A DNA stretch of 38,751 bases from an uncultured Coriobacteriaceae bacterium. Lineage in GTDB: Bacteria > Actinomycetota > Coriobacteriia > Coriobacteriales > Atopobiaceae. The translations under genes and the position numbers were made by a program. Below the pieces are notes generated by a model. It did not search any database, was not told the DNA's origin, and saw nothing but the letters and a program-made list of their open reading frames with translations. Shown piece after piece: positions 4,691 to 17,655 of the stretch (positions are counted from its first letter, which is position 1; each line of letters begins with the position of its first letter). Location of the stretch: NCBI GenBank assembly GCA_902795065.1, contig CADBJR010000009.1, positions 1 through 38,751 of the forward strand, in the 5' to 3' direction.

Positions 4691-4874
4691 TTGTCCGCTC
4701 TGCTGCCATCATACGCTTGCCCTTGCTCGCCCAGTCCAACGGCCAGAGCGGGTAGCAAAGACAAATGCTGTAGTAACCACCTGCTTAGAACTCGAACCTA
4801 CTAGGACCTACTCGAACCTTAAGGTACAAGCTCGGCATTTGTCTGCACCTGCAAAACCTCTTTTGCGTGACAAT

Positions 4875-5115
4875 TACTCCGTTGCAGTTCCCCGCTACTC
4901 CGTTCTAGTCCGTTTTACTCCGTTATTCGCAGGTAGAAGCCTCAGTCGCAACGCTCCGAACGGTATCGCTGAGGTCGTATCTCGCCTTAACTCCAGGGTT
5001 ACTCTGCTGCAGGTCCGTCTTACTCCGTCATGCATGGCGAAGCATACGGAGCTTTGGGGTTGAGGCTGGTCGCTGACGATGCCCGCTACTCCGTTCTAGT
5101 CCGTTTTACTCCGTC
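4875..5115. repeat. TACTCCGT repeat cluster
   Basis: The motif TA(C/G)TCCGT(T/C) occurs about eight times. It is densest in two near-identical 33-base blocks at 4891-4923 and 5082-5114, plus single copies near 4875 and 5021. The last copy ends at the stop codon of the minus-strand gene at 5114. With the leader duplication, these repeats fill the 740-base gap between 4372 and 5113, where I see no intact gene. Confidence 0.6.
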
Positions 5116-6556
5116 ATCTGGCAAGCGTGTAGTACTGCGACGGATCATGCGTGCTGCTGCCGTGCCATTCGAGGATCCCCATTGCGGCGAGCCTCTTGAG
5201 CGTCCTCGCGCACAGGCTGCTGCCCTTCTCGATGCGCTCCCCGAGCTCCTTGGTGGTCACACGACCCCTGCCCATGGCCAGCTGTACGGCGGCGATCTCG
5301 TAGCCGTTGAGTCCCTCCATCACGCCCTGGCCGACAGACTCCTCCAGCGTGTCGAACTGCCGCAGCACGCGCGAGGTTGCGCTGTTCTCAAGCGTCAGCT
5401 GTACCGAGGCGTCATTGGGTTCCTCGAATATCGGGTCGTTCAGAAAGAAACTCGCCATCTCGTCGTAGATACGCTGCACGCCCTCGTTAAGCTCACGAAC
5501 CCAGCCCATCTCCACCAGTGCGCGAGCGATGACAGGGTTGCGCGAGTAGCGCGTATGGCGCATGTTCTCGAGCGTGACGATGCTCGGAAGCTTGCCGGGA
5601 GAGAGGATCTCCATGCGGTCGTCGTACATCATCACGCGGATGTGGTCGCCGCTGAAAGCGTAGTCGCGGTGTGTGACGGCGTTGACCAGGCCCTCGAACC
5701 AGGCGAACTCCGGGTACTCGGGGATGACCTTGAACCTGCCGTCGTCGCCTAGGTACTGGAACTCGCGCAGCTGTTCGGAGATCATGGCCTTCGCGCCTTC
5801 GATGGCCTTGGGGAGAGGCCCGTCGAAGGTCCGCTCCTTCACGATGTTGAGGCGCCTGCCCGTCTGCATCTTGTTCCCGTCGAAGCGGATGACCCTTACG
5901 CGGGCACAGGGTATGAAGCGAGTCGGATTCTTGGCGAAGATGAGCACGCCAGCATTGGTCAGATGGCCGTTCACAAGGAAGCCTCTGCTGCGTAGAACCT
6001 GCTCATCGGGAAGGTCGGTTCCGATGTCCGCCTTGTAGCGGGCCAAGACCTCCGGGTCAACGTCCTCAATTGAGGAGCGATCGGCAATCTCGTCCTCGAA
6101 GTGTCTCTGGTTCTTGTCATATTCAAGCCTGATTACCTGCTCGCGGTCGAGCTCCACGCTCTTGTCGCCCTGTCGCAGGAACACCTTCTTGTCGTTTCGG
6201 CGGCAGATGACCCTGTCGGGGGACGGCTCCACCTCGATGACCAGGATGAAGTCGTCACTGCCAGATGAAGTGACGACCGGAATCCGCTCAACGTGAACGC
6301 TTGGTCCGGGTGTGCAGCTGGTGAGGTGGATTTGCTCGTAGTCCTCGACGTTTTGGGCGCCCTCGTAGTCGAAGCCGGTTACCTCGCCGTCGTCCTCGAT
6401 GCCGATGACCAGCTTCCCTCCCGAGGCGTTGGCGAACGCCACGACATGCCTTGCAGCATCGTTGGGCTTGATGCGCGCGCTCTTGCGGTCGAAGAACTGG
6501 TTCTCCTTGATATTGGAGAAGACGTTCACGTCATTCCGGTTGATCGGATGCTGCAT
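5114..6556 (-). CDS. AlbA_2/HATPase transcriptional-regulator-like protein
   Basis: The 480-residue protein matches the COG2865 layout. An N-terminal Schlafen-type AlbA_2 domain spans about residues 10-135 (FDRKSARI, FANASGGKLVIGIEDDG). A HATPase-like domain lies around 265-365 (LVNAVTHRDYAFSGDHIRV, DRMEILSPGKLPSIV), and a C-terminal winged helix follows (about 405-480). Members are called ATP-binding DNA-binding proteins or putative regulators; the target is unknown. The start has GGGAGG five bases upstream. It is alone on its strand, flanked on both sides by repeats and the duplicated leader, and so probably part of the mobile accessory region. Confidence 0.85.
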   Translation of the reverse strand: MQHPINRNDVNVFSNIKENQFFDRKSARIKPNDAARHVVAFANASGGKLVIGIEDDGEVTGFDYEGAQNVEDYEQIHLTSCTPGPSVHVERIPVVTSSGSDDFILVIEVEPSPDRVICRRNDKKVFLRQGDKSVELDREQVIRLEYDKNQRHFEDEIADRSSIEDVDPEVLARYKADIGTDLPDEQVLRSRGFLVNGHLTNAGVLIFAKNPTRFIPCARVRVIRFDGNKMQTGRRLNIVKERTFDGPLPKAIEGAKAMISEQLREFQYLGDDGRFKVIPEYPEFAWFEGLVNAVTHRDYAFSGDHIRVMMYDDRMEILSPGKLPSIVTLENMRHTRYSRNPVIARALVEMGWVRELNEGVQRIYDEMASFFLNDPIFEEPNDASVQLTLENSATSRVLRQFDTLEESVGQGVMEGLNGYEIAAVQLAMGRGRVTTKELGERIEKGSSLCARTLKRLAAMGILEWHGSSTHDPSQYYTLAR

Positions 6557-7333: not shown

Positions 7334-7482
7334 CCCAAAGGGGGATACTCCCCCTTTGGGCACGTGATAGCGTCTTCGACTTCGTATCTCATCCAACCAT
7401 TTCGGGGGATATCCCCCTTTGGGCACGTGATAGCGTCTCAACCCCGTATCTCTTACGTCCCATTCGGGGAGTACCCCCGAAT
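7334..7482. repeat. Triple palindrome cluster, GGGG/CCCC family
   Basis: Three G-run/C-run hairpins occur at 7334-7360 (11-bp perfect stem, loop ATACT), 7404-7417 (GGGGGATATCCCCC) and 7462-7482 (8-bp stem, loop AGTAC). A 26-base string starting at the C-run repeats exactly at 7350 and 7413. Between hairpins lies a small GATA...TATC stem-loop that has a counterpart at 12457-12481. The cluster fills the gap before the OB-fold gene. Confidence 0.8.
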
Positions 7483-8141: not shown

Positions 8142-9527
8142 ATGCTCAAACGGTCAATTGATAAGAAGCTGGCTGCATGGAAGGCACGCCCGCACCATCC
8201 GCTCGTGCTCAGCGGTCTGCGCCAAACCGGCAAAACGTTCAGCGTCCGAGCATTTGGCAGGGCAAGCTATGGCAATGTCGTCTACCTCGATCTTCGGGCG
8301 AACAAAGCCTTAAGGGCCGCCTTCTCCGGCGACTTCGACGTTGACAAGATGGTGCTCTCCATCACGGCAAACATGCCCGGCGCACGCTTCGTACCAAACG
8401 ATACGCTGCTCATTCTCGACGAGGTCCAAGACAGTGCCGATGCGCGCAGCTCGCTGAAATACTGGGACCTCGATGGCCGCTACGACGTTATCGCAACCGG
8501 GAGCTTCCTGGGTGTGAAAGGCTTCCGCGAGCCCTACCCGCGTGGCATTCCGGTGGGGTATGAGGAGCATCTCACCATGCATCCGCTCGATTTTTGCGAA
8601 TTCGCGGTAAACATGGGCATCTCCGAGGAGGTGCTGCATCACGCCCAGCAGTCCCTCACGGCGCTCGAACCGCTGCTGCCTGCCGTCCATGCGGGCCTTC
8701 AGGAGCTCTACCACCAGTTCCTTATCGTGGGAGGGATGCCCGAGGCGGTGAACACGTTTCTCGAGGCGCATGATCTTAATGCCGTGAGGAGCGTGCAGCG
8801 CGGAATTATCGCCTCCATACGCGATGACTTCGGGCGATACAAAAACGCCAAGGGCGAGGATGCGGTGAACGAGACCCTCAAGCTGCGGGCCGAGGCCTGC
8901 CTTGACTCGCTGCCCGCACAGCTGTCGAAGGAATATAAAAAGTTTCAATACAGCAAGGTCGATGTGGCGGGAAATAGCCCGCAGAAGGCCGATGGCCTGC
9001 AGTACCTTGTCGATGTGGGGCTTGTCGTGAAGTCCTATAACCTGCGCGAGATATCGGCGCCGCTCGAAGGGCAGAAGATCGGCAACGAGTTCAAGGTGTT
9101 CTTCGCCGACACGGGCCTGCTCGTCTCCCAGCTGGAGCAGGGAACTGCCGCGCGCATTCTCGCGGGCGATTTGAGCTCGTACAAAGGCGCGGTTGCCGAG
9201 AACATGGTTGCCTCGGCTCTTTCTGCTGCCGAGAAGGAGCTGTATTACTACCATGCGCCGAGCGGCTCTCCCGAGCTTGACTTTGTGGTGAACCTGCATG
9301 GGGAGCCAACCATTTTGGAGTGCAAGTCCACCAACGGGCGTGCGACGAGCATGCGCTATGTCCTGAAGAATCCCAAGAAGTACGGAGCGCATCCTGCCAT
9401 CAAACTTGCCGCGACCAACGTTGGAGGAGGGGAGGGGTTCGTTACGCTTCCCTCCTACGCGCTCGGATTTCTCGAAAAGGACGCGCAGGCGCTGGTCGCT
9501 CCCTCGGTAAGCATCTCCCTGACGTGA
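8142..9527 (+). CDS. AAA ATPase with DUF4143-type C-terminus (copy 1)
   Basis: The 461-residue protein has a P-loop at residues 25-32 (GLRQTGKT), a Walker B stretch (LLILDEVQD) near residue 90, and the ATGSFLG segment typical of the AAA_14 family. The C-terminal DUF4143 domain has a nuclease-like LDFVV...ILECKS motif. Such proteins are common and often multicopy in gut anaerobes; their role is unproven. Only a weak ribosome site precedes the ATG. The second family member at 12648 is much diverged. The gene sits directly behind the 33-bp repeats and may be controlled through them. Confidence 0.85.
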   Translation: MLKRSIDKKLAAWKARPHHPLVLSGLRQTGKTFSVRAFGRASYGNVVYLDLRANKALRAAFSGDFDVDKMVLSITANMPGARFVPNDTLLILDEVQDSADARSSLKYWDLDGRYDVIATGSFLGVKGFREPYPRGIPVGYEEHLTMHPLDFCEFAVNMGISEEVLHHAQQSLTALEPLLPAVHAGLQELYHQFLIVGGMPEAVNTFLEAHDLNAVRSVQRGIIASIRDDFGRYKNAKGEDAVNETLKLRAEACLDSLPAQLSKEYKKFQYSKVDVAGNSPQKADGLQYLVDVGLVVKSYNLREISAPLEGQKIGNEFKVFFADTGLLVSQLEQGTAARILAGDLSSYKGAVAENMVASALSAAEKELYYYHAPSGSPELDFVVNLHGEPTILECKSTNGRATSMRYVLKNPKKYGAHPAIKLAATNVGGGEGFVTLPSYALGFLEKDAQALVAPSVSISLT

Positions 9528-9579
9528 TGCCTTTGCCCGTAGCGTAGCCGTTATCCCTCTTCCCTTTGGAGCACGCGCC

Positions 9580-10152
9580 ATGGCCGACGACCTCTCGCAA
9601 CTCACCCTCGAGGAGCTCTGGCAGCTCTTCCCCATATTCCTCGTCGAGCACAATCCCGCGTGGCGGCGGCGCTACGAGGCGATGGCGGGCGAGCTGGCCG
9701 GGCTGCTTGCGGGCTTCAAAGTCGCGCGGATCAGCCACATCGGCAGCACCGCCGTCGACGGCATCATGGCGAAGGACATCGTTGACATCCTGGTGGAGCT
9801 CCCGCGGAACGCGAGCATGGAGGCCGCGGCGGGGGTGCTCGGGCGCGCCGGATTTATCGTTATGTCCGCCGAGGGCGAGCGGATCTCGCTCAACCGCGGC
9901 TACATGCCGGACGGCTTTGCCGACGAGGTCTTCCATGTGCACCTGCGCTACGTGGGCGACAACGACGGGCTCTATTTCCGCGACTACCTGCGCGAACATC
10001 CCGAGGTTGCCAGGGAGTACGAGGCGCTCAAGCTGGGCCTATGGAAGCGCTACGAGCACAACCGGGACGCCTATACCGAGGCGAAGGGCGACTTCATAAG
10101 GGCGGTCACCGCGGAGGCAAAGCGCGCCTTTGCTGGCCGGTACTGCAGATAG
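9580..10152 (+). CDS. GrpB-like nucleotidyltransferase-family protein
   Basis: The 190-residue protein matches the GrpB/UPF0157 family, a nucleotidyltransferase-fold group of unproven function. The signature ISHIGSTAVDGIMAKDIVDILVE (about residues 46-68) holds the GS motif and the Asp pair. The later HVHLRYVGDNDGLYFRDYLREHP segment and the closing YTEAKGDFI are also typical. Length is normal. GGAG lies about 10 bases before the ATG. It stands alone between an ATPase gene and a repeat cluster. Confidence 0.85.
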   Translation: MADDLSQLTLEELWQLFPIFLVEHNPAWRRRYEAMAGELAGLLAGFKVARISHIGSTAVDGIMAKDIVDILVELPRNASMEAAAGVLGRAGFIVMSAEGERISLNRGYMPDGFADEVFHVHLRYVGDNDGLYFRDYLREHPEVAREYEALKLGLWKRYEHNRDAYTEAKGDFIRAVTAEAKRAFAGRYCR

Positions 10153-10264
10153 GGGAGTACCCCTTTTTTGGGGTTCGCTTAGAGCCGATTAACATACCAT
10201 TTGCGCCAACTATTCGGCCTCCATTTTCGGAAGTCCGAATAACTCCGCCAAATGGTTTGTTAAT
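10151..10264. repeat. G-run palindrome and 30-bp imperfect inverted repeat
   Basis: AGGGGAGTACCCCT (10151-10164) overlaps the stop of the GrpB gene and belongs to the G-run/C-run family. It is followed by an imperfect inverted repeat with arms 10188-10217 and 10235-10264 (about 23 of 30 positions pair) around a 17-base spacer. This looks like a small MITE-type element or a cruciform. No gene lies between 10152 and 10349. Confidence 0.55.
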
Positions 10265-10348
10265 TTGCCGCGCCTGCTGCCTGGGTTTTTGTCCACCACG
10301 CCCGATATGCTAATCCCAACATCGGAAAGCTGTTCCAAGGAGCCTATC

Positions 10349-11161
10349 ATGGCAGCAAACGAGCAGGTGGCAGAGCGTATCCAGGCGCTGCGCGACGAGA
10401 TCCGCGCCGTGCGTGCGTCCATCGTGGAGATGCTTGCGCGCATCGATCACATCACCTTGCAGGAGCTTCCGCAGATTCGCATTGACTACGCGGTTAAGAT
10501 CGGCTGCTGGGAGCAGGAGCTGCTCGAGGCGGAGCTTGCTGGCCGCCGCGCCCGCCGCAGGTTGGCGCTGGCGCAGGCAGAGGCAAACCGTGGGCAGGCT
10601 ATAGAGCTCGCGCACATAGACAGCCAGCTTGATATCGAGCTTGCCGACTGGCAGGCAAAAGCCGAGGCCGCGCGTCTGGCATACGAGGCAGCGCTCAAGC
10701 AGCGTCTGGGAACGCAGCGGCTCTCGCACACAGACGCAAAAGAGGTCAGGTGCCTTTATCGCACGCTGGTCAAGCGCCTGCACCCCGATGTCTGCCACGG
10801 GGGAGAGCGCGAGGCTGCGCTATTCAAGATGGCGCAGGCCGCCTACGCGAACGGCGATGTTGAGGCGCTGCGTTCGCTGGAGGTTGCAACGCGTCACATG
10901 GATCCCTCGGAGGACGATTTGGAGCTTGCTACCAGCGAGTCCGAGCTCGAGCAGGAACTCGAGCTGGCGCGTATCGAGGAGGACGTGGTGCGCGAGCGTC
11001 TCGAGCAGACGGAGGATTGCGAGGAGATGCGCCTGGGCCGGCTGCTCAACAGCACGGAGTGGCTCACCCAGCGCACGTCTCAGCTTCGCGATGCGATCGA
11101 CGAGTGGCGGCGCGCGAAGCACGATTGCGAGCGCAGGCTGGCTGAGCTCATGGAGGTGTGA
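10349..11161 (+). CDS. Coiled-coil protein with J-like domain
   Basis: The 270-residue protein has long helices (about 1-120), then a J-like domain at about 128-180. That domain has the YRTLVKRLHPDV core and the HPD tripeptide (residues 145-147) that contacts Hsp70 in true J-proteins. A Glu-rich region (about 190-240) and a final coiled coil follow. It may recruit DnaK to a client; the client is unknown. The start is set by AAGGAG 8 bases before ATG 10349. It is the first of three tightly coupled genes (10349, 11163, 11575): its GGAGG-containing end supplies the ribosome site of the HIRAN gene. Confidence 0.75.
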   Translation: MAANEQVAERIQALRDEIRAVRASIVEMLARIDHITLQELPQIRIDYAVKIGCWEQELLEAELAGRRARRRLALAQAEANRGQAIELAHIDSQLDIELADWQAKAEAARLAYEAALKQRLGTQRLSHTDAKEVRCLYRTLVKRLHPDVCHGGEREAALFKMAQAAYANGDVEALRSLEVATRHMDPSEDDLELATSESELEQELELARIEEDVVRERLEQTEDCEEMRLGRLLNSTEWLTQRTSQLRDAIDEWRRAKHDCERRLAELMEV

Positions 11162-11162
11162 G

Positions 11163-11582
11163 ATGGCAGATAACACGCTTGCTCCGCTGGATCTTGGCAC
11201 GGCGGGAGGGCTTCTCGCCGCAATGCACGGCAATGGACCCGCCGGCGTCGAGGTGCCCAAGCCCTATGCGCAGCGCATCTGCCTTCTGCCCGACGTTCGT
11301 GTGGCGGGAACCTCGCATATCGATGGGATTGGCGAGCTCGCATCGCAGCTGCATGAGGGGGATGGCCTTCGCCTGGAGCGCGACACTAAGAACCGTTTCG
11401 ACCACTGGGCCATCCGCGTGCTCGACGCGCGCGGCAGGCGCCTGGGCTTTTTGCCTGCCGACAATAACGAGATTATCGCGCGTCTGATGGACGGCGGTAA
11501 GCGCATCGTGGGAGAGGTGCTCAGCGTGGAAGACGTGAGCGGCTGGGCGCGCATCGGGATGGCGGTGTGGCTTGATGACTAA
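11163..11582 (+). CDS. HIRAN-domain protein
   Basis: The 139-residue protein is almost entirely a HIRAN domain, a fold that binds DNA ends or stalled forks in Rad5/HLTF-type proteins. The pattern VAGTSHIDGIGELASQLHEGDGLRLERDTKNRFDHWAIRV...RLGFLP...NEIIARLMDGG is typical. No helicase or nuclease is attached, so it is a stand-alone HIRAN. It begins one base after the J-domain gene, using GGAGG in that gene's last codons, and its end overlaps the next gene. A DNA-related role is inferred from the family; bacterial stand-alone members are uncharacterised as far as I know. Confidence 0.8.
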   Translation: MADNTLAPLDLGTAGGLLAAMHGNGPAGVEVPKPYAQRICLLPDVRVAGTSHIDGIGELASQLHEGDGLRLERDTKNRFDHWAIRVLDARGRRLGFLPADNNEIIARLMDGGKRIVGEVLSVEDVSGWARIGMAVWLDD

Positions 11583-12408
11583 CTGGAACGGCAACGGTGG
11601 AGGATGGGGCGGAGATGCCCCCGTGTTCGACACCTACTTCGAATACGACTGGGGCGGCCGCAGGTGGCCCTACCCCGATGTATGGATCACCTACCAGCGC
11701 GATATGCCCACGGCAACGCGTACGGGGCGCGACTGCATCTGGCATTACACGCCCGACCAGGACGACGACGGCTGGGAGGCGCTTGGCTACGGCGGAGATT
11801 ACTATGACGAGGGCATGTCCTGCGTAGACGATGACGAGCACGAGAAGCGTGTGATGTGCTTCCAAGCTGCGGAGCTGCTCTATCTGCATGCCGCGGCAAA
11901 AGGCAACCCTATTGCAGACCTCTGCCTGGGCTACGTGTATGCCTACGATCGCTGCGAAGACAAATACTGGGAGAAGCTCACGGGCTGGCAGACCGACGAG
12001 GATCTGCGCACGCCGTTCGACTGCGACGGGCACGCGTACCGGCATTTCCGCCGCGCGGCCGAGGCGGGCGTGGGCGAGGCCTGCTACAAGCTGGGCGATA
12101 TGTTCCGCGATGGCCGCGGGTGCGAGGTCGATCTCGCCCAGGCGTTCGAGTGGTTCTCCAAGGCCTACGAGCTCACCAAAGACGACAGACCGCATCTGTG
12201 GGGGAGCGCCGCGCTGCGTCTGGGTGCGGCCTTCGAGGAGGGTGAGGGCTGCGATCACAGCTTCGAGAAGGCGGAGCACTGGTACAAGATCGCCACTACG
12301 GGTCTGGGCGCCGAGGTGAGGGCGGGCGGCAGCTGGTACCGGGGCGCGCTGAGACGTGCGGAGGCCGGTCTTGTGCGTGTTCTCCAGGAGCTCGACGGCC
12401 GGTACTGA
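11575..12408 (+). CDS. Sel1-like repeat protein
   Basis: The 277-residue protein has an aromatic, Gly/Asp-rich N-terminus (residues 1-75) and a C-terminal solenoid of Sel1-like repeats (about 150-275). The consensus A..F..AA..G...A...LG.M...G.G.. is seen in AYRHFRRAAEAGVGEACYKLGDMF and its successors. Such repeats act as protein-binding scaffolds. It overlaps the stop of the HIRAN gene by 8 bases, so translation is coupled. An in-frame TTG three bases earlier is less likely than ATG 11575. It probably bridges partners of the J/HIRAN set, which is inference from operon structure. Confidence 0.75.
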   Translation: MTNWNGNGGGWGGDAPVFDTYFEYDWGGRRWPYPDVWITYQRDMPTATRTGRDCIWHYTPDQDDDGWEALGYGGDYYDEGMSCVDDDEHEKRVMCFQAAELLYLHAAAKGNPIADLCLGYVYAYDRCEDKYWEKLTGWQTDEDLRTPFDCDGHAYRHFRRAAEAGVGEACYKLGDMFRDGRGCEVDLAQAFEWFSKAYELTKDDRPHLWGSAALRLGAAFEEGEGCDHSFEKAEHWYKIATTGLGAEVRAGGSWYRGALRRAEAGLVRVLQELDGRY

Positions 12409-12428: not shown

Positions 12429-12514
12429 TCATTTTGGGGATACTCCCCGAAATGACAGGCAGCGTCTTCGACGTCGTGCCTCATCCAACCATTTCGGGGA
12501 ATACCCCAAAATGG
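12429..12514. repeat. Three-hairpin repeat, GGGG/CCCC family
   Basis: Outer hairpins at 12429-12455 (11 paired positions including one G-T, loop ATACT) and 12489-12514 flank a central stem-loop at 12457-12481 (AGGCA...TGCCT). The outer two are inverted copies of each other. The central and right parts align with 7368-7408 (GCGTCTTCGAC...CATCCAACCATTTCGGGG). The paired bases of the central stem differ in a compensating way. A further GGGG-TTAT-CCCC block follows at about 12549-12560. Confidence 0.8.
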
Positions 12515-14397: not shown

Positions 14398-15321
14398 TTA
14401 CGGAATCTCGATTTCGAAAAACGCCAGCAGCCTTCTGAACTCGTCCTGACCGTCCAGGCAGGTGCCGATAAGATACCCGCGCTCGCGGCTCCACTCCTGG
14501 AGCCCGCGATAGTAGAATGCCTTCTTCGCGTCTTCGATGATGAAGGGGACGATGCTCCAGCGCAGGCATTCTTTGAGCGCGACGAGCCTCCCGACCCTGC
14601 CGTTGCCGTCTTGGAACGGGTGTATGCGCTCGAACTCCGCGTGGAAGGCGACGATGTCCTCTATGGTTGCGGATTCGCGCGCGTTCCAGCTCTCCAGAAG
14701 CTCCCTCATCCTAGCGGGGACGTCCTTCGGCGCTGTTGTCTCGCGGCCGCCGACCATGTTGGCGCGCTGCTTGTAGTCGCCGACGGAGAACGACGGAAGC
14801 GAGGCGTCCCGCGTGTCGTGCTTCAGGATGCGGTGGAGCTCCTTGATCATGTCCTCGGCCAGCACGTCCTCCGCGTGGTCGATCACGTAGTCGATTGCCC
14901 TGAAGTGGTGGATCGTCTCGAGGATGTCGTCCACGGGGATGCCGTCGCCGGCGTCGATAGTCCTGGTCTCGAAGATCAGCCGCGTTTGCTCCTCGGTGAG
15001 CGTGCTGCCCTCCAGGTGGTTGGAGTTGTAGGTCATGCGCACCTGCAGCTCGTGGTACAGGCCCCCGCGGATGCCCGCGTCCTTCTCCTCGCGCAGGCGC
15101 TGCAGCACCGGGTTCGCCGAGATGATCCGGTAGAGGTCCTCCGGCGCGCATCCCAGGGTGCCCGCGATTTTTTGGAGAACGATGGGGGAGACCCGCTCGC
15201 CTTTCGCGAATTTCGCAATCGTGCGCGATGAGATGCCGGGATCGCGCGTGAGGTCGGTTCTGGTCAGGCCCTTCTCGGTTAGCTTCTGCTCGAGCTCCTC
15301 GTATGAATACAGGGCGATCAC
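14398..15321 (-). CDS. Fic-family AMP transferase with N-terminal HTH
   Basis: The 307-residue protein has a Cro/CI-type helix-turn-helix (about 10-66) and a Fic domain with the full catalytic motif HPFQDGNGRVGR (234-245). Fic enzymes usually transfer AMP to Ser/Thr/Tyr of a target protein. An autoinhibitory motif SNHLEG (100-105) fits (S/T)xxxE(G/N) and lies before the Fic core, so activity is likely held in check within the protein. The start is a GTG whose GGAGG overlaps it too closely, so initiation is uncertain; no other start lies before an upstream stop. A perfect inverted repeat around the -10 box suggests the HTH represses its own gene. Confidence 0.88.
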   Translation of the reverse strand: MIALYSYEELEQKLTEKGLTRTDLTRDPGISSRTIAKFAKGERVSPIVLQKIAGTLGCAPEDLYRIISANPVLQRLREEKDAGIRGGLYHELQVRMTYNSNHLEGSTLTEEQTRLIFETRTIDAGDGIPVDDILETIHHFRAIDYVIDHAEDVLAEDMIKELHRILKHDTRDASLPSFSVGDYKQRANMVGGRETTAPKDVPARMRELLESWNARESATIEDIVAFHAEFERIHPFQDGNGRVGRLVALKECLRWSIVPFIIEDAKKAFYYRGLQEWSRERGYLIGTCLDGQDEFRRLLAFFEIEIP

Positions 15322-15472: not shown

Positions 15473-16252
15473 ATGTCCGAGCTCGACGGCATATTCGACT
15501 ATCTCCTCGATATCGCCCGCGGCAACATGCCCGGGCCCATCGGCATGCTCAAGGCGCCCGACGAGAAGGGCCCGCTCGGCGAGTACCTCATCAAATACGC
15601 GCTCGACAACAACCTCGCCACCACGGGGTATCCCACCTACACGAACCTCATCGTGCCCGGCACGGACGCCTCCGCCAACATCGCCGAGATCGACGTGCTC
15701 CTGCTCACCGCCAAGGGCATCTTCGTGTTCGAGTTCAAGAACTACGCGGGGTGGATCTTCGGCAGCGCCAACCAGCGCCAATGGACGGTCAGCCTGGCGA
15801 AAGACAAGCGCGAGCGCTTCTACAGCCCCGTCCTGCAGAACCGCACGCACATCCGCGCGCTCGCGGACTATCTCGGCCTTGATACCAGCGCGTTCCGCTC
15901 CTACATCGTCTTCAGCGCCCGCTGCGTGCTCAAGGCGGTCCCCGACGACACCGCCGAGTACTGCATCTGCCAGCGGCCCGGCCTGCGCGCCCGCATCAAG
16001 CGCGACCTGCGCGAGCGCCTGGCCATCTTCGACAACGACACGCTCCGCTCCATCAAGGAACGCCTCGATCTACTCGCCGCCGCCTCGAGCGAAGACGCGC
16101 GCGAGGAGCACGCGGAGCAGGTGCAGGCAGCGCTGCGCACCTGCCCGGTCTGCGGCAAGCCCCTCGTGGAGCGCCACCGCAAGTCCGATGGCGGCACCTT
16201 TATCGGCTGCAGCGGCTACCCCAAGTGCCGCTACACGCGAAACAGCTGGTAG
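15473..16252 (+). CDS. NERD-domain nuclease-related protein with zinc ribbon (copy 2)
   Basis: The 259-residue paralogue of the 2144-2923 protein aligns end to end without gaps. The NERD core keeps E72, D74, E87 and K89 (here FEFKN), and the zinc ribbon keeps C224, C227, C246 and C252. The start has a clear GGAGG about 8 bases upstream. The two copies differ mostly at third positions and conservative sites, so both appear under selection rather than one being decayed. It is divergent from the Fic gene. A 7-bp inverted repeat (16296-16302 with 16317-16323) downstream may end its transcript. Confidence 0.87.
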   Translation: MSELDGIFDYLLDIARGNMPGPIGMLKAPDEKGPLGEYLIKYALDNNLATTGYPTYTNLIVPGTDASANIAEIDVLLLTAKGIFVFEFKNYAGWIFGSANQRQWTVSLAKDKRERFYSPVLQNRTHIRALADYLGLDTSAFRSYIVFSARCVLKAVPDDTAEYCICQRPGLRARIKRDLRERLAIFDNDTLRSIKERLDLLAAASSEDAREEHAEQVQAALRTCPVCGKPLVERHRKSDGGTFIGCSGYPKCRYTRNSW

Positions 16253-17578: not shown

Positions 17579-17655
17579 ACGCAACGAAGGGGGGTACCCC
17601 CTCTGTTGCGTTGGAGGGGAGTATCCCCTCTGTTGCGTTGGAGGGGAGTATCCCC
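17579..17655. repeat. Tandem G-run palindromes with GTTGCGT flanks
   Basis: A hairpin at 17579-17611 (ACGCAAC...GTTGCGT around GGGGGGTACCCCC) is followed by an exact 27-base unit starting at 17598 and 17625, each with a GGGGAGTATCCCC core. It lies in the 229-base gap between the CBS and hydrolase genes and belongs to the same palindrome family as the copy at 7334. The rest of the gap holds a plausible -35/-10 (TTGCAC 17710, CATAAT 17731, spacing 15) for the hydrolase. Confidence 0.7.

Follow-up and report, generated by a model that had tools for sequence, protein, structure and literature searches.

A J-domain coiled-coil gene beside a stand-alone HIRAN gene, with Sel1 as a third part in one bacterial order: a possible chaperone-targeting module

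Results

The cassette and its local setting

The stretch of DNA analysed here (the window) comprises 38,751 nucleotides from an uncultured Coriobacteriaceae bacterium. The ORF list and Pfam searches place three ORFs on its + strand at positions 10349-12408, which encode a J-domain coiled-coil protein, a HIRAN protein and a Sel1 protein. The features of this cassette and its flanks are:

8142-9527: AAA_14/DUF4143 gene, flank (Pfam)
9580-10152: GrpB-family gene, flank (Pfam)
10151..10164, + strand: terminator-like hairpin with a T run after it, 3' of the GrpB-family gene and ahead of the cassette (pattern scan only)
10349..11161, + strand: J-domain coiled-coil protein P0001, 270 aa, with a long N-terminal helix, a J core with HPD and a C-terminal coiled coil
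10781..10789, + strand: HPD triad, P0001 residues 145-147, between helices 127-144 and 153-167
11163..11582, + strand: stand-alone HIRAN protein P0002, 139 aa
11253..11270, + strand: P-x-P-[FYL] segment in the N-terminal tail of P0002, residues 31-36, a candidate docking site
11575..11582, + strand: overlap of the HIRAN stop and the Sel1 start, 8 nt
11575..12408, + strand: Sel1-repeat protein P0003, 277 aa
12621-13910: second AAA_14/DUF4143 gene, flank (Pfam)

As an earlier note on this DNA had it, the three genes overlap or abut: a 1-nt gap separates the J stop codon from the HIRAN ATG, and HIRAN and Sel1 share 8 nt, from the Sel1 ATG to the HIRAN stop. Production of the three proteins in a fixed ratio, which the same note thought probable, is a suggestion from this overlap only. 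The terminator-like hairpin lies 3' of the GrpB-family gene, and the cassette is therefore probably its own transcription unit; the pattern occurs at five sites in the region, compared with 1.4 expected. A scan for sigma-70 promoters found none.

The two AAA_14/DUF4143 ATPase genes bracket the cassette, and both match the PADLOC candidate PDC-S01. The same region encodes a Schlafen AlbA_2 protein (5117-6556), a Fic protein with an HTH (14401-15321) and a NERD protein with a topoisomerase zinc ribbon (15473-16249). A palindrome-like sequence, GGGG-NNTN-CCCC, is found at 7466-7477, 10152-10163, 12496-12507 and 17589-17600, that is, at four sites (five matches, counting both strands) where 0.43 are expected in shuffled sequence; two of the four flank the cassette, one on either side. 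The genome of the window carries two more HIRAN genes (G000:C2:60816-61028 and G000:C19:34781-35026), of which one is part of an open frame of 1226 aa and the other sits in a frame of 146 aa.

The three proteins

J-domain proteins are co-chaperones of Hsp70. P0001 matches Pfam DnaJ (PF00226) at 1.2e-4 and 22.6 bits, under the cut-off of 27.8, and because of this its assignment rests on the family, through a profile match and a kept HPD. The hits of a profile made from 18 J relatives to solved J domains are confined to the HPD core; the best is at 4.7e-6, and E. coli-type DnaJ entries come at around 3e-4 to 8e-4. An AlphaFold2 model of the J protein (8 sequences; mean pLDDT 88.7) has a helix at 2-80, the two helices around HPD and a C-terminal helical part at 197-269. 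Among the matches listed, fold searches with this model returned coiled coils and helical bundles only and no J domain, in a whole-model comparison that is dominated by the long helices of the protein.

HPD is intact in 35/35 J genes with a HIRAN neighbour, a count that takes in two J genes with a broken HIRAN and one whose HIRAN runs off the end of a contig, and that leaves out the stop-containing J of L037. The single full-length J without HIRAN has HPS instead; decay of HPD in a HIRAN-less J, here one case, is expected if J works only with HIRAN. From what is known of the J family, HPD would be expected to recruit DnaK.

P0002 is a clear HIRAN protein (PF08797, 3.3e-15, 56.1 bits against a cut-off of 24.7), and the HIRAN profile matches lp_0118 (PDB 3k2y) at 4.4e-17 and HLTF at 1.9e-6. 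Family knowledge suggests that it may bind DNA ends. R73 and N77 are kept in 27/27 J-linked HIRANs and D80 in 26/27. In the HMMER alignment N77 of P0002 falls opposite N91 of HLTF, and the N90A-N91A change in HLTF disrupts HIRAN function, according to the available portion of PMC11237066.

Other residues distinguish the J-linked HIRANs from the rest. P34 and [FYL]35 in the N-terminal tail are present in 27/27 J-linked HIRANs and in 1/43 others, a comparison that relies on a profile made from J-linked HIRANs and in which the others are for the most part remote; the single exception is the broken relic L050. The tail residues are also absent from L046 and L049, the closest HIRANs without J. In own-family loci added later the P-[FYL] pair occurs in every HIRAN inspected, as APF in L162. 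N102 is found in 26/26 J-linked HIRANs but 8/39 without a J neighbour, and K113 in 26/26 but 3/38. On these sequence patterns we propose the P-[FYL] tail as a candidate docking site for J.

P0003 matches Pfam Sel1 (PF08238) in two stretches at 3.2e-15 and 56.4 bits, over the cut-off. A single-sequence model of it had a mean pLDDT of 40.5 and was set aside.

Recurrence in the window's family and order

The earlier note had proposed a gene-neighbourhood search for the three families, and held that their failure to co-occur in other genomes would tell against the unit. With HIRAN as bait, 100 relatives gave some HIRAN gene in 46; comparison of the flanks at 19 places showed J in 15/19 and Sel1 in 14/19, and no other gene was common to most of the 19. 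Baiting with J is a cleaner test of recurrence because HIRAN is not presupposed. In the window's own family J matched in 24/140 genomes, two of which (G013, G1046) were excluded from the count, as a contig ends within their J or HIRAN. All three genes were present in the window's order at 17 of the 22 assessable loci, so that co-occurrence is borne out; these 17 include two loci whose Sel1 is truncated by the end of a contig, one J with an internal stop and one short Sel1 frame (235 aa). The remaining five consist of an intact J and HIRAN without Sel1 (G1036), two J genes with a broken HIRAN (G023, G1033) and two J genes without HIRAN (G059, G1041). The last two look decayed: one is the J in which HPS replaces HPD, and the J of the other stops at 180 aa. 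Within the window's own genus the module is found in 1/5 genomes.

The spacing of the genes is also kept. The same 8-nt overlap between HIRAN and Sel1 is available at 19/21 loci examined, made up of 13/14 (L044 using a TTG start and L048 lacking the overlap) and 6/7 (L162 lacking it); L042, with its short Sel1 frame, was omitted. From J to HIRAN, taking the nearest start codon, the distance ranges from about -26 to +45 nt. The distances of the J, HIRAN and Sel1 proteins are correlated with one another across loci (J-HIRAN, r 0.86, 24 loci; J-Sel1, 0.89, and HIRAN-Sel1, 0.81, 12 loci each), for which common descent alone could also be sufficient.

We considered whether the cassette has a fixed chromosomal neighbour and rejected this, as the flanks share nothing but small synteny, mainly within one genus. 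L046 has HIRAN and Sel1 without J. L166 (10047-12158) lacks Sel1, and the first half of its cassette HIRAN runs on in frame into a stretch whose sequence, on reading, resembles the C-terminal half of type III Res proteins.

The J and HIRAN pair beyond the order

At 11 loci outside the window's order (four Actinomycetota, six Bacillota and one Geobacter) J immediately precedes HIRAN, and none of the 11 has Sel1 downstream. Because the pair occurs there without downstream Sel1, J plus HIRAN is the conserved core, and Sel1 is a lineage-specific third part of one bacterial order. The three-part unit of the earlier note thus divides: the J and HIRAN part holds across phyla, and the Sel1 part does not extend to loci outside the order. 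As the pair is found in lineages separated by phylum, its function can be compared across them.

These loci come from several samples. A J search of 396 genomes from the window's phylum gave six matches. Four belong to one distant family, and in all four HIRAN is directly downstream of J and Sel1 is absent. A HIRAN of this distant family, used as bait in named genomes, gave eight loci: the same four Actinomycetota, an uncultured Geobacter (L067), a member of Tissierellia (L068), a Bacillota bacterium (L069) and a Sphingomonadaceae bacterium (L070). J is directly upstream of HIRAN in 7/8, the exception being the Sphingomonadaceae bacterium. J matched five times in 299 genomes around the Tissierellia locus and three times in 199 around L069, two matches being shared by the samples; in all four new ones (G607, G637, G715, G771) HIRAN adjoins J. 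Taken with the four Actinomycetota, HIRAN is next downstream in 8/8 strong new J matches outside the window's own family.

Among 198 genomes around the Geobacter locus, the only strong J match was in the L067 genome itself; three weak J relatives in this sample (E about 1e-11 to 1e-10) had no HIRAN. Two loci of the Geobacter sample (L115 and L116, about 8450-11560) have a weak J coiled-coil relative that overlaps an ATPase gene, with RuvB adjoining; the ATPase gene reads like DnaA/Hda. A further weak J relative, at L117, precedes a gene for a small Sel1-like protein whose end is sigma-like (4747-6005). A table in the available part of PMC7962754 lists GSU0050 of G. sulfurreducens as a HIRAN gene. 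We considered this gene as a J-linked HIRAN and found no tie, since a J gene was present in 1/4 genomes of Geobacter's family, the one already known.

In L114 (7991-10097) a Sel1/TPR-like gene, with a weak Sel1 profile match (1e-5), overlaps the J start from upstream, and HIRAN follows J; all three genes overlap, in an order unlike that of the window. A Sel1-type part may therefore have joined J and HIRAN a second time, on the other side.

Spread of the module

We then compared the descent of the module with that of its hosts. In a tree of joined J and HIRAN sequences from 24 loci, the nine rows of the window's own family fall in separate groups, and a tree that keeps them in one clade is rejected (AU p 1e-5). 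The Geobacter row joins two Bacillota rows at a node with support of 98/95, and L114 and L048 are long branches of uncertain placement. Because the tree conflicts with the host families, and because presence is patchy, the distribution points to spread by horizontal exchange.

We looked for a vehicle. By tblastn, the J proteins P0001, L069 and L113 and the HIRAN P0002 had no match on plasmids, and the J proteins P0001 and L069 had none on phages. In IMG/VR, neither a Sel1 alignment nor P0001 found a copy, and the 26 loci returned by a HIRAN search had no J gene. We therefore see no sign of the usual vehicles in the records searched, and rejected the idea that the module is phage or plasmid cargo.

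The defence neighbourhood

The earlier note had also suggested looking for the three families in defence islands. Matches to defence models lie within about 5.5 kb of several copies: a type I REase (REase_I), with HNH also near, at L035; AbiLi at L037; PDC-S02 at L044; AbiEii at L046; a NERD-helicase at L060; an Mrr-type mREase_IV and an NsnA-like protein at L061; Cas2 and Cas3 at L068; AbiD, Vsr and a cytosine methylase at L069; and the two PDC-S01 ATPases in the window. When 30 flank proteins, chosen as likely, were checked singly, 15 had a match and 15 did not. In batches, 126 PADLOC models were matched among 112 flank proteins and 101 among 85, compared with 41 among 112 control proteins, where the models overlap, one helicase may score many of them, and the control regions also carry PDC-S01 and JetD matches. 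Several copies lie among metabolic genes (L062, L113). J and Sel1 matched none of the PADLOC families, and HIRAN matched PDC-M03B only, weakly (best 1.9e-9) and over the HIRAN part. Because of the overlap between models, the many hits of a single helicase and the matches in controls, enrichment of the module in defence islands is only suggestive and unproven; what stands of the suggestion is that defence genes do lie near several copies, and what weakens it is that control places match defence models as well and that some copies sit among metabolic genes.

Discussion

What the pair might do

We give an even chance to the reading that the unit is an accessory, horizontally exchanged chaperone-targeting module. 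In such a module the HIRAN protein would bind DNA 3' ends or single-stranded DNA and so supply the address; its proline-aromatic tail would hold the J-domain coiled-coil protein, which would bring host DnaK (Hsp70) to the HIRAN-bound DNA; and DnaK would then pull off or refold proteins sitting on that DNA. Sel1, added in the window's order, would most likely be an adaptor that picks or blocks the client. We infer the docking of the tail to J, the adaptor role of Sel1 and the benefit to the cell. The benefit might be protection against phages or other elements, which we place a little short of even, or help at stalled forks and breaks, about which we are more doubtful. A new horizontally exchanged immune or genome-guarding system, with a J-coiled-coil and HIRAN core and exchangeable third parts such as Sel1, in which DNA-end recognition would aim Hsp70 at the protein complexes of invading DNA and the effector would be a chaperone and not a nuclease, is a tentative reading that we think on balance unlikely.

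In a dedicated anti-phage defence, J and HIRAN would sense phage DNA ends or replication intermediates, DnaK would dismantle phage replication or packaging complexes, and Sel1 would regulate. This is a sharper form of the chaperone-targeting explanation, with which it is compatible, and we regard it as plausible, at somewhat less than an even chance. The known or candidate defence genes near several copies, the higher PADLOC counts in flanks than in controls and the L166 copy, broken by its join to a type III Res-like half gene, all speak for it, as does the requirement for DnaJ in phage sensing by bNACHT25, which gives a chaperone link to immunity a precedent (PMC12169576, available part). 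The heavy overlap of the models and the defence-like matches of the control detract from those counts; moreover, no PADLOC model is matched by J or Sel1, no copy was found on the phage or plasmid records searched, and the module is without an effector enzyme. A chromosomal helper of DNA repair or replication restart, clearing proteins from broken ends or stalled forks and unrelated to phages, would find the patchy presence of the module (24/140 genomes in the family, 5/299 in one phylum sample) odd for core repair, and we consider it rather unlikely. It draws on HLTF, which needs its HIRAN to clear Cas9 from broken ends and for whose HIRAN a role at forks has been proposed (PMC11237066, in the portion available), and on the weak J relatives in L115 and L116 beside a DnaA/Hda-like gene and RuvB, names given by sequence reading.

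The remaining explanations fare less well. That the module is a general proteostasis accessory, whose HIRAN has lost DNA binding and makes protein-protein contacts only, is consistent with conservation of the chaperone half as good as that of the HIRAN half, but the near-invariance of R73, N77 and D80 in J-linked HIRANs speaks against it and makes it improbable. Still more improbable, in our view, is a toxin-antitoxin-like or selfish stability module with HIRAN or Sel1 as the antidote, along the lines proposed for the HIRAN-bearing HipN: the genes are small and overlapping, and putative HipN antitoxins carry HIRAN (PMC8262856, in its available part), but Pfam identifies neither a kinase nor another toxin enzyme among the three genes, no HipA gene adjoins the window copy among the neighbours scanned, and plasmids searched gave no match. 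The HipA-type toxin-antitoxin candidate PDC-M03 was rejected on the same lack of an adjacent HipA kinase gene among those neighbours.

Relation to known systems

The earlier note knew of no described system with exactly these parts, and this agrees with our search: in the literature covered, mostly open papers, we found no J plus HIRAN or J plus HIRAN plus Sel1 system, and an earlier mention is possible. A system with this core thus appears to be undescribed, its parts being known domains.

Several systems share one part or another with it. J-domain proteins such as auxilin, in which the J core lies away from the N-terminus, have the same HPD between two helices, and the J family profile matches auxilin weakly; in the cassette, by comparison, the J core is inside a coiled-coil protein, falls short of the Pfam cut-off and has HIRAN as its partner. 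Within the defence literature, bNACHT25 needs host DnaJ to sense phage and is a precedent for a J protein in antiphage sensing, but it uses the housekeeping DnaJ with a NACHT protein and no HIRAN, as described in the accessible part of PMC12169576. CoCoNuT type IV restriction systems have Hsp70-like domains, a chaperone-related part in a defence setting, and domains that the HIRAN fold resembles, according to the available portion of PMC11090510; they differ in being McrBC-based, and 'DnaJ' and 'J domain' are absent from the main text of that paper.

On the HIRAN side, lp_0118 is likewise a stand-alone bacterial HIRAN, whose aligned part starts past the position of the P-[FYL] tail. HIRAN also occurs with ARPP genes (PMC9503650, in the part available). 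HipN and PDC-M03B, in which HIRAN lies beside HipA kinases, resemble the cassette in placing HIRAN in a small operon and in the weak PADLOC match (PMC8262856 and PMC11706625, available parts), whereas the cassette has no HipA or HipS-like domain and its HIRAN is partnered by a J protein. Another parallel is HLTF, whose HIRAN is like P0002 by profile and by the N91 equivalent, and guides removal of Cas9 from a broken end by HLTF's own motor (PMC11237066, in the portion available). The cassette HIRAN has no SWI2/SNF2 motor on the same chain, and its energy source would be Hsp70.

If our reading is true, DNA-end recognition would be tied to Hsp70 in bacteria, and stand-alone bacterial HIRANs would gain a concrete partner. 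The J and HIRAN pair is small, about 1.2 kb, and HPD, N77 and the P-[FYL] tail offer sites for direct point tests. The output of the module, in defence or in repair, would then be ATP-driven removal of protein and not cutting, as HLTF achieves with a motor of its own.
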